Below are positions 35,971 through 43,984 of a stretch of DNA of 64,000 nucleotides, in pieces. The DNA comes from Melanopsichium pennsylvanicum. Its lineage: Eukaryota > Basidiomycota > Ustilaginomycetes > Ustilaginales. The stretch is from assembly GCA_900208305.1 (NCBI GenBank), contig OAPG01000002.1, positions 1,550,001-1,614,000 of the forward strand. Reading direction: 5' to 3'. Numbering within the stretch: position 1 is the first letter of the stretch; the number at the start of each line of letters is the position of its first letter. Under the pieces are notes generated by a model. The model ran no database searches and was not told where the DNA came from. It saw only the letters and a list, made by a program, of their open reading frames with translations. Both the position numbers and the translations under genes were made by a program.

Positions 35971-36844
35971 AAATCTTACCACTAGCCCTCTTTCAAGTGA
36001 CATCTTCGACCTTGCTGTACATGTACAGATATTCTCTGATGCTTGTTGATCGTTGGCTCCTTTTTTTTTTTTTTTTTTTCTCTCTTTCTCTCTCTCTCTT
36101 TCTTTCTTTCTTTCCGTATATATATATCAAGATACTGCTCAAAAGCGCCCAAGTTTACCCATGTTTCCCTTGATCGATTGTCATTGTTTTTTCTTCTTGC
36201 CGAACTTTACGATTTTGCTTCCTTTGCTTTTCGCTTCAAGTCATTTTTTCCCTTTTCAAAACCCTCAAGAAGAAGAAAAAGCTTGCAGAAACGTCAAAAA
36301 ATTTTATAAAAAAAAATGGTCATTCGCCAAAGATTCGGCTTCAACTTGGAAGGAGAAATCGCCCACATGTGTGTGCTTGTCCTCAAAACATTTCGTTTTT
36401 TCTTTAAAGGTGTTCTCATCGAAACTTGCAAATGTGTGAAAACAACCTTGCGAGATGTAAGATGCGAGAAAAGTGGTTCGAGTTTTACATTGATGATGTG
36501 GGAAAGATATGGATGAAACAAGACATTTGAAAATGAAAATGGTTATAATAAAAAAAAAAAAAAAGCAAGTATGGATGGATGGATGGAAAAAGGAGCAAAG
36601 TAACAAAGTTCTCAAGATTGGATGGAGAGAGAATGAACTGAATCTTCAATATAGGACCTAAGAAAAGGTTGTTGTTTTAAGGTATAGTAAAGTAAATTAG
36701 TTTTTTCTGTACAGTTACAGTTTGCACTGACGATTTAATCTAATGTTACTGGTATGTGTATATGTAGTAAACCTTTCAGAATGATACTTTTTGAGCAAAG
36801 TAAGATGTGTTCGAGAAAGGGGTTTTTTAAGAAAAAAAAAATGG
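35971..36844. other. Convergent AT-rich spacer
   Basis: The spacer contains a T run of about 20 at 36060-36079, a following CTTT-type tract, and A runs at about 36307-36315 and 36549-36564. A 66-codon frame at 36316-36516 looks like chance. No gene is called. Confidence 0.5.
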
Positions 36845-37352
36845 TCACAGCATGTCTGCCAACTCTGCTCGTACCTTGATCATGTGAGCGATCAATACCT
36901 CTTTTTCATCCCAACGTTGATCTTTTTCAACCTTTATACTTCCATCACTTTCAAAGATTCTTATCAATCTTGCGTTCGGTTTTTTTCCATCATACCAAAC
37001 TTGTTCCACGTTTTCATCACCATAGATAAATTGTTTCCAAGCCTCCAACCACTGTTTAACCTTGTACTCTTCTTGTCCTTTGTTGAGGGCTGTAAACCAC
37101 CAGATGAAATCATCAAAACTGTGACTCATTCCCGAGTATGTTTTCACAGCTTGATCTATAATTTTAGGTCTGTAATTGATTCGATACCTTAAAATTTTGC
37201 TTGGACTCAACCCTCCTCCTCGTCCTTCAGAAGAAATAAGATCGGTAATGAGAATTCTTTCAGCAATGTAAACTTGCGAATCGGAACAGATACGACCAAA
37301 TATGTCGACAATCTCTTCGCAAGAATGTCGTCCTTGTTCTTCCCATACTTGC

Positions 37353-37387
<35 letters not shown>

Positions 37388-39133
37388 GTAGCGTACGCGA
37401 ATGTTTTCCGAACATCCATCGCAACAAATTACTTCCATCCGATCATGAATCTGTGGTTCAGTGATCATGTATACCGAACCGCATCTGCAATCGTAACCAA
37501 ATTTTATCGATGTAGCATCGGATTCGAGCAGTGGTTGGAATGCTTCAAAATCCACTGTGGCACAAATTCTTGGTGGTTTAGAATGAGCTGAAGAGGATTG
37601 TGATGCAGCTAGGAAATGATCGTAACGTGCTCGTTGCAAGTCATCGATGAGTGTTTCATATGCGTGGTTGAGTTGACGTATGAGCTCATCCGATTCAGAA
37701 ACAGTATCGACGAGCATGATGCCATCTTTGCCTTGCTGCTGAAGTTTATCAGGATGGTAGAGTCGAACTTTGGACAAGTAGGCTGAGCGGATCTCGGAAA
37801 GACTTGCTGATGGTTTTACTCCGAGCGTCGAGTAGAATGTGGTCTCTCCACCTACCGAGGCAGGGGTTATGTTGCCACTATGTGTTTGCTTGTGTCGACT
37901 CTTTGAACTGGTTTGACACATAGGTACGCCGTAGTAAGGTAGCATCTTTTCAACCAACGGCAAGGTATAGTAATTGTTGACTTGTCTGACTAAAGAAGCT
38001 TTGTCGGTGGGCGTATTGATGTATCTATACACCCATTCCTCATCGTCACATTCTCCAATGACGAAGCGAATATCTTGTTTGTGACACCACCTCCCAAACC
38101 TGCCATCCATCATGGCGTTTGTCCAATCCGACCTCACAAACGTACCTTGCTGCGAATCTCTTGTTGCTCGAAAAGTATGCATGTCCATCTTGGCCAAGGT
38201 CTGTACAAGAGTGATATCGTCGATCTGTCTCAACTTTGCAATCTTGTCACTGTCATTCAAGTGCGCCGAAATGTTGAGGAGAGAACAGAGCTCTTCGAGT
38301 TGCCCCTCGGTTTCGTCTACTGTTTTGGATGGCCAGATGGCAGAGTTGGATTGTAGAAAGACTCGTTTGATGATAGGCTTGTACTGTGGATTGGAGGTGG
38401 AAAGATCAAACTCGTGCAAAAGCTGAGAGTGGGTGCTGTGGGCACCAGCGCTGAGACCGCTAACGGTAATGTTATTAGGATCACCACCAAAGTGCTTGAT
38501 ATTGGTATGAACCCATTCGATTGCTGCTCTCTGATCCCAAAATCCATAGTTACCTGTGAGACCGTGTGGATCTTCGGAGCGTAAAGCATTGTGAGCAAAG
38601 AAGCCAAACGCATTGAGTCGATAAGCTGCAGTAACGACGATTGCGTCGAGTCCGGCGGTGTGAATGAGATCGCTTGGATCTCGATCGGGAGCAAAGTGGG
38701 CGTTCCCTATCTGAAGCCATCCGCCATGGATAAAAAAGAGCACGGCAAGGTTGGACGAAGATCGAGAAGCATCGGAGGATGTGGGAGTCCAGATGTTGAG
38801 GTAGAGGCAGTCTTCGGATTGACGATGGACGGGTTTGTCTGGAAGCGTGATACGGTTGGTTAGGGCGTAATTGGTTGCTTGCGGGCACTGCGCTGCGAAT
38901 TCAACGTATTGTCTTGCGTCGCTATCGTAGCGAAATGTGGAAGCAAGGGGTTGAGGACGCTTCCATCGAAGTGAGCCGACGGGAGGTTGAGCATATGGGA
39001 TTCCAGCGTAACGCTGAGACTTTAGTTGGCCTGTGATGACGTCCTTTGCTACACAGCCGACAATCTTGCCTTGACCAGGGATAGTGACGGTGGCGTCAGG
39101 ATGAGAGATGAATGTGCTTGATGCTTGACCCAT
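36845..39133 (-). CDS. Composite ORF: type-B carboxylesterase interrupted by a DPH4-like J-domain/CSL zinc-finger protein
   Basis: This is one uninterrupted 762-codon frame. Residues 1-404 are the N-terminal part of an alpha/beta-hydrolase: YAGIPYAQPPVGSLRW, the SEDCLYLNIW signature at 106-115, an HGG oxyanion motif and the nucleophile elbow GLSAG (Ser228). Residues about 405-582 form a complete DPH4/Jjj3-type protein. They start at Met405 and contain a J domain (431-508) with HPD at 460-462, then the CSL zinc domain with Cys549/Cys551 and Cys571/Cys574. DPH4 acts in diphthamide synthesis on eEF2. An 11-residue Asp run (583-593) follows, and the esterase resumes: EEIVDIFGRICSDSQVYIAERIL, then GMSHSFDDFIWWF with the likely catalytic His671. 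There is no signal peptide; MGQASS fits an N-myristoylation motif. Whether it works as one, two or neither protein is unknown. Confidence 0.85.
37354..37386. repeat. (CAT)11 trinucleotide microsatellite encoding poly-Asp
   Basis: Eleven perfect CAT units on the plus strand read as GAT on the coding strand and give Asp583-593. The run sits exactly at the boundary between the DPH4-like unit and the resumed esterase. Confidence 0.95.
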
Positions 39134-39661
39134 TTACAAATTAAGCTGGCGTAGTCAAAGGGATGAGAACCTCTTGAGGAATGATGGGATCAGTCTGATG
39201 GCTTCAGGAGCGTTCGCGTGGCGTGTCAAGTATGGGGTCGGAGGTGCAGAGGCGGCTGAACGGAATGGAGATCGATGATGGTCAGCAGTGGCCGATCGCT
39301 GTCAGTCGATCAGATACAGTTTTTTTGTGCATAATCTTTGGTCTTCGCAGTTCAACATGATGTACATTACTGTATTCTGTGATTGTACGGCTATAGATTC
39401 GGGATATGTTGGAAAAGCTTAGCTGGATGAGAGCGAGTTGATGCGGAGACTAAGTTAGTGCAAAGTACAATATTTAAATTACAGTACAGCATTAAGCCCG
39501 TCCAATGTCACATAACGCTTTCCTTTCCTCGGCAAACCTTTTTTTTTTTTTTTTTTGGACCGCACCCAACAGACAGGAGTTGGGCAGGTCACATGCAAGC
39601 TCGTGGGAAAGAGTTGGCTGAACAGCCATAAGAGAGGAGAAAGTTGTAGAGGAAAAAAAGG
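39134..39661. other. Spacer between the composite esterase gene and the 5S rRNA gene
   Basis: This presumably holds the esterase promoter. An 18-T run lies at 39539-39556. No gene is seen. Confidence 0.5.
39653..39659 (-). terminator. Pol III terminator of the 5S rRNA gene
   Basis: A run of seven T in minus-strand reading begins three bases after the inferred 3' end of 5S rRNA. Confidence 0.75.
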
Positions 39662-39779
39662 AACTGCAACACCTAGGATTCCCGCGTGGTCCCCCACCGC
39701 AGTACTGACTAGGCGATACCTTGCTTAACTTCGCAGATCGGACGGGATGCGGTGCTTTCAAGGTTCTATGGCCGCAGAT
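39662..39779 (-). rRNA. rrf: 5S ribosomal RNA
   Basis: In minus-strand reading the gene begins ATCTGCGGCCATAGAACC. It contains the conserved AAGCACCGCATCCCGTCCGA and GAAGTTAAGCAAGG blocks (internal control region), then AGTACTGCGGTGGGGGACC and GGGAATCCTAGGTG. It is 118 nt, and the terminal stem pairs apart from one mismatch near the end. It is a solitary copy with no 18S/5.8S/28S nearby, so 5S genes appear dispersed in this genome. Confidence 0.95.
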
Positions 39780-40079
39780 GGCGGGTTGAGATAATATATT
39801 GCTTAAGTAGTATTATGTTCTGCATCTTTCAGTCATTCTGCGTTTCCCCTCTCTCTCTGTCTTTCTCTCTCTCTCCTCTGCACATACAAGCAAGGATACC
39901 AGAAAAGGGGTCATTTGCATAATGTCATATCAAGATCAAGAGAAAAAAAAAACAAGAGAAGCGCTATGTACGTAAATGGTGGTTCCTATCTCTGCATGAC
40001 GCCTTGGCAGGCATAGAGTCTGTCAAAGCACCCTTGGATCGCTAGTTTGCTGCCAGGCTTTACTTTTTCCCAAGCGTTT

Positions 40080-41246
40080 TTACAAACGCGAGATGATCTT
40101 TTCGGTGAAAGCGCGGGTGCCGAGCTTGCCGCCAAGGTCACCTGTGCGCTCACCGGCAGCGATGGTCTTGAAAATGGCATTCTCGACGCGATCAGCCTTG
40201 TCAAACAGGCTCATGTGTCGGAGCATCATGATGGAAGAGAGCAACAGCGCAGTGGGGTTGGCCTTGTCCTGACCAGCAATGTCGGGAGCGGAACCGTGGA
40301 CGGCCTCAAAGATGGAAGCGTCCTTACCAATGTTACCTGAGGGGGTCAAACCGAGACCACCAATGAGACCAGCGCACATGTCGGAAAGAATGTCACCGTA
40401 AAGGTTGGGCATGACCATGACGCGGTCAGCGTAAGGTGCGGGGTCCTGGACGATGCGGAGGCAGGCACGGTCAAGCAAATCTTCGTCGTAAGCGATGTGA
40501 GGGTATTCCTTGGCGACCTGTCGGCAGGCGTGCAAGAACATACCGTCGGACATACGCATGATAGGAGCCTTGTGGACGGCAGTGACCTTGTTACGACCGT
40601 TCTGCTCAGCGTGGTGAAAGGCATAACGAGCAACACGCTCGGAAGCCTCGTAGGTGATGAGCTTGATGGACTGGACAACACCGTCGATGACCTCGTGCTC
40701 GATACCCGAGTACTCACCCTCGGTGTTCTCACGGATGAGCACGGTATCAACATTGTCGTAAGCGGTCTTGAAACCTTGAATCGACTTGCAAGGACGCACG
40801 TTGGCAAACAGGTGGAAGGTTCGTCGAAGAGTCAAGTTGAGCGAAACGTGACCCTTTCCAATAGGCGTAGCAAGCGGACCCTTGAGCGCAACTGTATTCT
40901 TCTTGATGGAAACAATGGACTCCTCAGGGATGGTCTGCTTGCCATCCTTGATGAAAGGAGCGACGGATACCTCCTCCCACTTGATAGGAACATCGGCAGC
41001 ACGGTAGATTTCCTTAACAGCGTTCGAGACCTCTGGACCGATACCGTCACCGGGGATTAAAGTGACGGTGTACTTGCCATCCGAGCCCTTTTGCTTGTTG
41101 TAAGCGGAAGTGGGAGCATTTGTAACAGGCATGGCGAGACCGCGGACGCATAGTTTGTTGTTGTTAAGCTTGAGCGCCGATGAAGCGAGGCTGGGACGCT
41201 TTGCCAACGAAGAGCTGGCGGATCGGAAAGCAGGAGCCGAGAACAT
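40080..41246 (-). CDS. IDH2: IDH2, catalytic-type subunit of mitochondrial NAD+-isocitrate dehydrogenase
   Basis: IDH2 is the citrate-cycle subunit that carries the active site, oxidising isocitrate to 2-oxoglutarate in a hetero-octamer with IDH1. The protein is 388 aa. The start is the ATG at 41246; the open frame upstream to 41393 is repeat-derived leader. Residues 1-45 form an Arg/Ser/Leu-rich presequence. The core has [14 protein letters not shown], the nucleotide/substrate segment with [39 protein letters not shown], the [14 protein letters not shown] helix and [36 protein letters not shown] carries the NAD-specific region. The C-terminus is SRL. A GAA trinucleotide repeat lies in the leader. 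It is divergent from IDH1. Confidence 0.94.
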
Positions 41247-42820
41247 GATTGAAGAGGAATAAGCAAAGTGAGGAGGATGATGAGGATGATGTATGTGGAT
41301 ATGTATGGCGAAGAAGAAGAAGAAGAAGAAGAAGCAGCCATCAGCGTCCATTTGATTCTTTCTGGCAGCCTTTGCTTGATCACCAAAACCCATCCATCTC
41401 GCTCAAAACTGCCTAAGAATTCATTCGCTCACACCGCCAAATCACAAAAACGAAAAGAAATAAGAAAAACATTTAAAGCGAAAAAGCTCGAAATTGGGGT
41501 CTGTGTGATTATTTTAACCTTGCTTATCGTTGAACAGAGAGATGCACCATACACTCAGGCCATACAAGAATGAGTATATACATGACTTGAAGCTGGCCCC
41601 AATTTTATTCTTCTCGCTTTCGAGTTGCTCATAGAAGGTCGTAAGGGAAAGCATGCTTTCATTAGCTTAGCTGTGTGATAGCAGTGACGCATGGAGAGCA
41701 TGAGCGATACACCATCGCCGTCGAAAGGGCTGGTTCAAGGTGTTATATCAAGTTGAAAACTGTTTGTTCTTCTTGCGGTTTGGACGGTATTGACAGCGAG
41801 ACAAGCGTCAAAGGGGAACAAATGGTTTATTTTATTATTATTATTGGTTCAAGCGGGTCAAGTCGGATGGCGTATTCCGAGCGCCGAGTGAAATTCCAGC
41901 TTCCACGTTGACCAAATCTGTTGTTGCTTTCTAGCTTTGATGCTTGTTGATGATTCAGCCCTCGAAAGTAGCATATGGGTGACGACGACGACAAGAATCG
42001 TCATGAGATGCCGTGCATTCCAAGACCTTTTCAACAGTTTCTGATGTGTGTGTGTGTGTGTGTGTGTGACCAACTCTGTCCTCCGTCGCACAATCAAGTG
42101 AACACGCATCGCCATGAATCCCGTTTGTTACCGAACAACGTGCAGATTTTTGTTCGACGTGTCCACCGCCTCGTGCAGATTTTGTATACAGTGCTCGTTG
42201 ACAGCTAACTTACGAGTATATTAATTTGATTTTAGTGCATGTTTGCTGCATAACAGAGTATTGGCGGGAGATTTTCACCGATGCATGGAATACCTAACAC
42301 TTGTGCTCAGCCTGTACTGTATGAGTGATTGTCCCTTTTTCTTCTTTCTTTTTGCGATTCAAACTTGCGTTAACTTCCAATCATGTGGCTGTGGGCCGAA
42401 ACAAAAGTCGAATTTTGAAAAGTGGAAAACGTCGAAAAACTTTTCTTTCCCTTTTTTATTTATTTATGTATTTATTTATTTATTGATCTATTTATTGATC
42501 TATTATATACTTATTTACTTAATTATTTATCGCCGTCGATATGCTTTGTGAGCCAAAAACAGAGACATTCTGCTGTAAAACTCATTCTTGAACGCACGCC
42601 TTCTTGGAAAGTGGGTCGGTTGGATCGCTCTGCTTTGCTTTGACTTTATCCTCGTCCTCACAACTGCAACTCCTTCTTGCTCCATCCCTCGCCCATCCTA
42701 CATTGCTGTCCCCGTTTCCGTTTCCGTCGTCGTCATCGTCGTCGTCATCATCATCTCCTGCAGCAGCATCACACTTATTCAAATAAACATACAAACACCA
42801 ATACACCCTCATACACAAAT
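41247..42820. promoter_or_regulatory. Shared 1.6-kb divergent region of IDH2 and IDH1, rich in microsatellites
   Basis: The region holds a (GAA)n run at 41310-41334 near IDH2, a (TG)n run at 42044-42067, a TTTA-type repeat at about 42450-42530, and GTC/CGT-rich sequence at 42715-42750 near IDH1. Promoter function is inferred. No other gene is seen. Confidence 0.55.
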
Positions 42821-43984
42821 ATGAACTCTCTTCGACAGCTCAACAGGGCCGCTGCGCCCGCTCTCAAGCACGCAACCAAGTCCGGTCTGGTTCTTCCAAA
42901 CTCGTCTCAAATCCTTCGACCGGCTACCACGCTCGCTGCTGGTACTCCCAAGATCTCCAAGGGCCCCACCAAGTATGGCGGTGTCTACACTGTCACCCTC
43001 ATCCCCGGTGATGGTGTCGGTGTCGAGATCACTGACTCAGTCAAGGAGATCTTTGACGTCATGAACGTGCCCGTCGAGTGGGAGCAGTTCAACGTTTCCG
43101 GCGAGACTCACGGATCCGAGTCTCTCTTCAAGGAGGCTATGGAGTCGCTCAAACGCAACAAAGTAGGTCTCAAGGGAATCCTCTTCACCCCCATCGAGAC
43201 TGGCTCGCACAACTCGTGGAACGTTGCCATGCGCCAGCAGCTCGACATTTACGCTTCTCTCGTCGTCTGCAAGTCGCTACCTGGCTACCCCACCCGTCAT
43301 AAGGATGTTGACTTTGCCATCATTCGTGAGAACACCGAAGGTGAATACTCGGGTCTCGAGCACTCTTCCTACCCCGGTGTCGTAGAGTCGCTCAAGGTGT
43401 CCACCCGTGCCAAAGCCGAGCGCATCTCTCGATTTGCATTTGACTTTGCGCTCAAGAACGGCCGCAAGAAGGTCACGTGTGTCCACAAGGCCAACATCAT
43501 GAAGCTTGGTGACGGTCTCTTCCTCAACACTTTCCGACGTGTCGCCGACGAGTACAAGTCGTCAGGTATCGAGTCCAACGATATGATTGTCGACAACACC
43601 TCCATGCAGCTCGTCTCGCGTCCGCAGCAGTTTGACGTCATGGTCATGCCCAACCTCTACGGTAACATTGTTTCCAACATTGGTGCCGCGCTTGTAGGTG
43701 GTCCTGGTATCGTTCCCGGATGCAACATTGGGCGTGAGTACGCTCTTTACGAGCCTGGTTGCCGTCACGTCGCTAAGGACATTATGGGCACCAACGCTGC
43801 CAACCCCGCTGCTATGATCCTCAGTTCCACCATGATGCTTCGTCACCTCGGTCTCGACACTCAGGCCAACCAGATCGCCGAGTCGGTGTACAAGGTCATT
43901 GCTGATGCCAAGGTCCGAACCGCTGACATGGGTGGCAAGTCCAAAACCCATGAGTTCACTCAGGCCGTTCTCTCTAACCTTTAA
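42821..43984 (+). CDS. IDH1: IDH1, regulatory-type subunit of mitochondrial NAD+-isocitrate dehydrogenase
   Basis: IDH1 is the partner of IDH2 and in yeast binds AMP and citrate. The protein is 387 aa from the ATG at 42821; upstream in-frame sequence is leader. Residues 1-45 are presequence-like (MNSLRQLNRAAAPALKHATK). The core has [15 protein letters not shown], the divergent TPIETGSHNSWNVAMRQQLDIYASLV in place of the catalytic-subunit pattern, [44 protein letters not shown] and YALYEPGCRHVAKDIMGTN. The substitutions relative to IDH2 (for example EPGCRH instead of EAVHGS) identify the regulatory subunit. Codon use is C-rich, suggesting good expression. Confidence 0.94.
   Translation: MNSLRQLNRAAAPALKHATKSGLVLPNSSQILRPATTLAAGTPKISKGPTKYGGVYTVTLIPGDGVGVEITDSVKEIFDVMNVPVEWEQFNVSGETHGSESLFKEAMESLKRNKVGLKGILFTPIETGSHNSWNVAMRQQLDIYASLVVCKSLPGYPTRHKDVDFAIIRENTEGEYSGLEHSSYPGVVESLKVSTRAKAERISRFAFDFALKNGRKKVTCVHKANIMKLGDGLFLNTFRRVADEYKSSGIESNDMIVDNTSMQLVSRPQQFDVMVMPNLYGNIVSNIGAALVGGPGIVPGCNIGREYALYEPGCRHVAKDIMGTNAANPAAMILSSTMMLRHLGLDTQANQIAESVYKVIADAKVRTADMGGKSKTHEFTQAVLSNL

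Follow-up and report, generated by a model that had tools for sequence, protein, structure and literature searches.

A DPH4-type unit apparently nested in frame within a type-B carboxylesterase of Melanopsichium pennsylvanicum

We analysed a stretch of 64,000 nucleotides from the smut fungus Melanopsichium pennsylvanicum (hereafter the window), whose minus strand carries a single open reading frame of 762 codons plus stop, without internal stop, in which an esterase N-terminal part and a probable esterase end flank a DPH4-like unit (Table 1). The ATG of this chimeric frame occupies positions 39131-39133 and the stop codon 36845-36847, and the plus-strand reading of the same interval contains 15 stops. 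Since an in-frame TAA directly adjoins the ATG, no N-terminal extension is possible without an intron. The protein begins with MGQASST, a start whose MGQASS we take to resemble an N-myristoylation signal, and no hydrophobic leader was seen by eye. About 0.5 kb upstream of the chimera start, on the same strand, lies a 5S rRNA gene, and the window also contains two divergent adjoining genes of the isocitrate dehydrogenase type, which perhaps encode both subunits of the NAD enzyme with a common promoter region.

Table 1. Window coordinates of the chimeric gene, its parts and neighbouring genes
Feature	Positions	Strand	Remarks
Whole chimeric frame, 762 codons plus stop	36845..39133	-	no stop; TAA in frame directly before ATG
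Esterase N-terminal part, residues 1-404	37922..39133	-	Ser228 (38450-38452), Glu365 (38039-38041)
S/T/K-rich opening of insert, residues 405-431	37841..37921	-	starts with Met405 (codon 37921-37919); without family match
J domain, residues 433-505	37619..37837	-	HPD 37748-37756; Pfam DnaJ; 2l6l match
CSL zinc finger, residues 538-582	37388..37522	-	CRC 37481-37489, CDGC 37412-37423; Pfam Zn_ribbon_CSL
Poly-Asp, residues 583-593, 11 GAT codons	37355..37387	-	
C-terminal part, residues 594-762 (169 residues), read as esterase end	36848..37354	-	GMSHS His671 (37121-37123)
5S rRNA gene	39661-39779	-	Rfam RF00001, 112.4 bits
Isocitrate-dehydrogenase-type gene	40080-41393	-	Iso_dh match
Isocitrate-dehydrogenase-type gene	42677-43984	+	named by eye

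A first-pass annotation, which named no strand, had described one 762-codon frame made of esterase residues 1-404, a J domain with a CSL finger, a poly-Asp run and a GMSHS motif, and this description was confirmed, on the minus strand. The motifs of both proteins are found in the order GLSAG (residues 226-230), HPD (460-462), CRC (549-551), CDGC (571-574) and GMSHS (668-672), and EDCL is present as well. In codon use, frame 0 outscored sense frames 1 and 2 in all but one of the six sections, being clearly positive in the N-terminal part (0.23), the J domain (0.27) and the C-terminal part (0.15), which supports translation of these three sections in frame 0. The score of the CSL section was near zero (0.02, with one antisense frame at 0.05), that of the 27-codon linker 405-431 was negative (-0.11), though the best among the three sense frames, and the 32-codon stretch 506-537 was not coding-like (-0.18), with sense frame 1 and two antisense frames scoring higher. 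GC3 was highest in the N-terminal part (0.51), lower in the insert (0.40) and lowest in the C-terminal part (0.36). In sliding windows it stood at 0.55 ahead of codon 390 and at 0.48 near the left border, and had dropped to about 0.3 past codon 480, a point within the insert; from codon 480 to the end it stayed at 0.27-0.43, with no shift at the right border.

For the family searches the chimera was cut into pieces, each of which was searched separately against Pfam. Residues 1-404 matched COesterase (PF00135) with an E-value of 2.5e-64. By structure comparison, this part aligns to residues 1-398 of the 534 of 1crl, ending about 136 residues short and before the catalytic His; thus, the esterase is incomplete at residue 404. 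The GxSxG nucleophile is present as Ser228, invariant in 32 aligned rows, and Glu365, which we take from the esterase family to be the triad acid, stands in a column conserved at 90% or more. The predicted fold of the N-terminal part resembles that of cholinesterases and Candida rugosa lipase. The chimera shares with type-B carboxylesterases the N-terminal part, GxSxG, EDCL and Glu365, with His671 as the candidate catalytic His, but its domain is split by a 178-residue insert and the Asp run, whereas theirs is uninterrupted.

The relatives used in these comparisons came from bacterial and archaeal genome contigs, where esterase matches in 80 loci were kept of 357 relatives. Of these 80, 43 were aligned; in the other 37 the longest frame picked by the script lacked G.SAG or was over-long, or the locus was simply not taken. 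From the 43, N-terminal fragments of 31 served for fold prediction and C-terminal fragments of 24 for a profile of the esterase end. In the MAFFT alignments the esterase ends were wrongly set against the insert and the C-terminal fragments were misplaced too; only N-terminal fragments were used for the fold. In the AlphaFold model of the whole chimera, 297 of 762 residues have a pLDDT of at least 70. The model is usable to about residue 400 and poor beyond, where 10-residue means range from 28 to 68 and the insert and C-terminal part had no relatives in the alignment. Structural rows reaching model residues 475-477 were discarded, as they lie inside the poorly modelled insert. Viral contigs yielded no relative of DPH4 and, for the esterase, a single weak stretch.

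Within the insert, the J domain matched Pfam DnaJ (E 5.1e-14, 52.6 bits) and the finger matched Zn_ribbon_CSL (E 1.7e-11, 44.1 bits). Human DPH4 (DNAJC24, 2l6l) was the best of 45 matches among solved structures (E 3.3e-9), with an alignment spanning residues 28-175 of the insert and taking in both the J domain and the finger. Among the remaining 44 matches, 43 cover the J domain, and the last, 1wge, covers the finger alone. The order, J domain then CSL, is that of DPH4. Folded alone, with no relatives in the alignment, the insert reached a pLDDT of 44.7. DPH4 is usually a free-standing small protein, which is not a functional need. Like DPH4, Jjj3 and DNAJC24, the unit described here has an HPD-containing J domain and, after it, a CSL finger whose cysteines form CxC and CxxC; in contrast to them, it is nested in another enzyme, with 404 residues before it and 180 after. 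Judged by its domains, the insert is a member of DPH4, and it differs by its arrangement.

The identity of the C-terminal part needs more care. When searched alone, it gave nothing above the Pfam cut-off, where DUF7618 came closest (E 0.05), and nothing in NCBIfam; its PDB matches included no esterase, the best of them (E 0.014) being to another protein. This would suit a truncated esterase N-terminal part fused before DPH4 and followed by an unrelated tail. Against such a tail, the segment gives an end-to-end alignment of 133 columns with the ends of 24 bacterial esterases, beginning where the N-terminal part stops and placing His671 on the His that is invariant in all 24 rows, although the score of this alignment is not significant. 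None of 442 controls (200 shuffles and 242 unrelated segments, which overlap, come from 12 frames of the window and are not independent) aligned over more than 75 columns. The profile score itself fell within the control range, being equalled or exceeded by 11 of 200 shuffles and 6 of 242 segments, and 1 of 30 shuffles had scored higher in an earlier run. With the whole chimera as query, HMMER placed residues 664-720 on the catalytic-His stretch, but at -3.7 bits. Hence it is only the length of the collinear alignment, not the score, that sets the C-terminal part apart from the controls. We infer that it is the esterase end, and consider an unrelated tail improbable. The earlier reading of this segment as an esterase C-terminus with the expected His motif thus holds for GMSHS and for collinearity, while it lacks a significant family match of its own. 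Together, the domains, the motifs and the collinear C-terminal part support a complete DPH4-type unit in frame between two parts of one esterase, as the first-pass annotation had proposed.

Another question is whether the esterase is still alive. It may be dead or decaying, with the frame kept just for DPH4 and esterase-derived flanks left around a working DPH4. The C-terminal part is strongly diverged from bacterial esterases, and the nucleophile motif is GLSAG, against GESAG in most of the 44 aligned rows, both of which would fit decay. On the other hand, Ser228 and Glu365 are retained, as is a His where one is expected, and both esterase parts are protein-like in codon use. In addition, the N-terminal part scored 266 bits against a bacterial esterase profile, compared with 211-252 bits for five paralogues of the same genome, a comparison to be read with the fact that the profile members had been found with the chimera as query. 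We consider loss of the esterase rather unlikely.

The insert follows the helix VEKMLPYYGVP and lies between Glu365 and His671. The loop at the same place has 16-19 residues in 32 of the 43 bacterial esterases and 0-1 in the remaining 11, and measures 17, 17, 17, 22 and 34 residues in the five paralogues. The proposal of an insertion into a surface loop fits in that the loop varies in length, and its surface location is presumed. No repeats spanning the borders of the insert were found, one direct repeat lying wholly inside it, and no poly-A was seen by eye; the insertion may have involved either a gene or an mRNA. As an insertion footprint, the longest word common to both borders (7 bases) was rejected, since 61% of random pairs reach that length.

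The poly-Asp run is encoded by (GAT)11, the only GAT/ATC run of at least five units in the window, which sits exactly at one border. Assemblies can slip at such a microsatellite, and DPH4 could have been joined to the esterase by an assembly error. However, the frame is intact at both borders, the esterase seems to resume on the far side, the contig is 1.83 Mb long, and the whole gene and the C-terminal part are each present in a single copy in the genome; we find such an error scarcely credible.

A further explanation would keep both proteins separate: DPH4 would lie in an intron, or be made by internal initiation, and the esterase would be spliced without it. The insert begins with its own Met, and a good donor-like GTAGGT is found at codon 427. 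Among 65 in-frame GT..AG pairs whose use would excise most of the insert, a loose YTNAY branch site accompanies 22, but the CTRAY form accompanies none. A YAG acceptor ends only six of the 65 pairs, all at codon 562 inside the finger, and none occurs after codon 575 up to 640. As for internal initiation at Met405 (position 37921), which the first-pass annotation had considered, it is unlikely as the main route because the ATG lies in a weak context, with C at -3 and T at +4, and comes after 20 other ATGs, counted over all frames and with the start among them. The RNA around this ATG showed no unusual fold compared with shuffles (z 0.88), and no Rfam element was found in the gene, the sole match within 36000-40000 being the upstream 5S rRNA. 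A separately made DPH4 appears very improbable to us.

To place the chimera among other candidates, we searched the 21.1-Mb assembly of 61 contigs, which also gave a strong match to the Ustilago mating family (E 2.0e-90), in keeping with the smut lineage. Of three candidates scored in the CSL family search, two places proved to carry the finger: the chimera and a 94-codon frame that reads as DPH3 (G000:C12). This DPH3, encoded by its own gene, has the CSL finger family in common with the chimera but no J domain, and DPH3/Kti11 is described as acting in electron transfer rather than as a J protein (PMC6193676). Querying with the insert returned 14 places; apart from the insert and the finger of DPH3, these were 12 J-like places, some of them weak (E 9e-6 to 0.23). 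By scan, eight of these 12 have an HPD-type J stretch and the other four none. A six-frame search with the finger pattern over the loci of the chimera, DPH3 (twice) and the 12 J-like places found no CSL finger within about 1.5 kb of any of the latter; one chance match to the pattern lay in another frame of one of these loci (L007). No second J-plus-CSL locus was found in the assembly. The supposition that this might be the only DPH4 copy therefore stands for the assembled genome, where just DPH3 and the chimera carry a CSL finger. As the assembly consists of 61 contigs and its completeness is not stated, a second DPH4 may lie outside it.

Other members of the diphthamide pathway were found in the same genome, including two Diphthamide_syn genes (DPH1 and DPH2 type), a DPH6-type gene (L114, G000:C14), a gene that we take from its sequence to be of the DPH5 type, and eEF2 with the target loop LHTDAIHRGGGQ. 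Hsp70 matches occurred at eight places. With these genes present and no other DPH4 found, the fungus appears to use the pathway, with the chimera apparently serving as its DPH4. The DPH6-type frame has a long C-terminal continuation that includes nine Asp in a row, and the idea that poly-Asp is special to the chimera was rejected on that ground.

In yeast, the first step of diphthamide synthesis requires Dph1-Dph4, and dph1-dph4 mutants lack the sensitivity to overexpressed DPH5 or show it in altered form (PMC3585130, PMC6193676); one of these reports adds that Dph3 and Dph4 are thought to hold the iron-sulfur clusters of Dph1-Dph2 in the needed state (PMC3585130). Yeast Jjj3 partners the cytosolic Ssa Hsp70, and electron-carrier activity is reported to be present in human DPH4 and absent from yeast Jjj3 (PMC5473770). 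Given this difference, we propose only a J-protein role for the chimera.

The explanation that we favour, with fairly good confidence, is one bifunctional chain containing the sole DPH4 found here, nested in a length-variable esterase loop. One gene would give rise to one polypeptide, a cytosolic type-B carboxylesterase carrying a complete DPH4 as a nested domain, tethered at one end through a flexible stretch rich in S/T/K and at the other through the acidic Asp run. From the esterase, the chain would exit into the DPH4 domain and then return, so that both could fold. Through its HPD, the DPH4 domain would engage cytosolic Hsp70, and it would assist Dph1-Dph2 in the initial step of making diphthamide on eEF2; a leaderless esterase would keep it in the cytosol, where it is needed. 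Because no other DPH4 was found, the chimera is probably the only DPH4 source of the cell. From the sequence at hand we infer single-chain expression, DPH4 function, remaining esterase activity and the route of insertion. A bolder proposal, which we advance tentatively and with more doubt than trust, is that DPH4 exists in this fungus solely as an obligate domain nested in an intracellular esterase, such that the diphthamide of eEF2 is physically tied to the esterase. If so, the abundance, place or ligand state of the esterase would set the amount of modified eEF2.

Domain insertion as such is known, and Swiss-Prot holds an entry for DPH4 of Ustilago maydis. In the literature searched, drawn largely from papers outside subscription, we found no paper on a DPH4-esterase chimera, on DPH4 in smuts, or on an esterase that houses a J protein and finger as what seems to be the sole DPH4. 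Both DPH4, as a J protein, and the translation-factor modification that it serves are conserved. In the chimera, a complete chaperone of two domains appears within an unrelated catalytic domain, with neither set of key residues obviously lost and apparently as the only copy. If this is true, the chimera would be a natural test of a J protein that is constrained at both ends and still serves Dph1-Dph2, and would offer a removable link from an esterase to eEF2 modification. It would also mean that automatic annotation could call the chimera an esterase and DPH4 missing.

Among the other esterase frames of this genome, two (G000:C21:208955-210691, L021 and L022; G000:C4:1063977-1065494, L023 and L024) contain extra in-frame stretches of about 65 and about 20 residues, respectively, at a place other than that of the chimera's insert, just before a GNYG-type motif; these stretches are either unspliced in-frame introns or real insertions.
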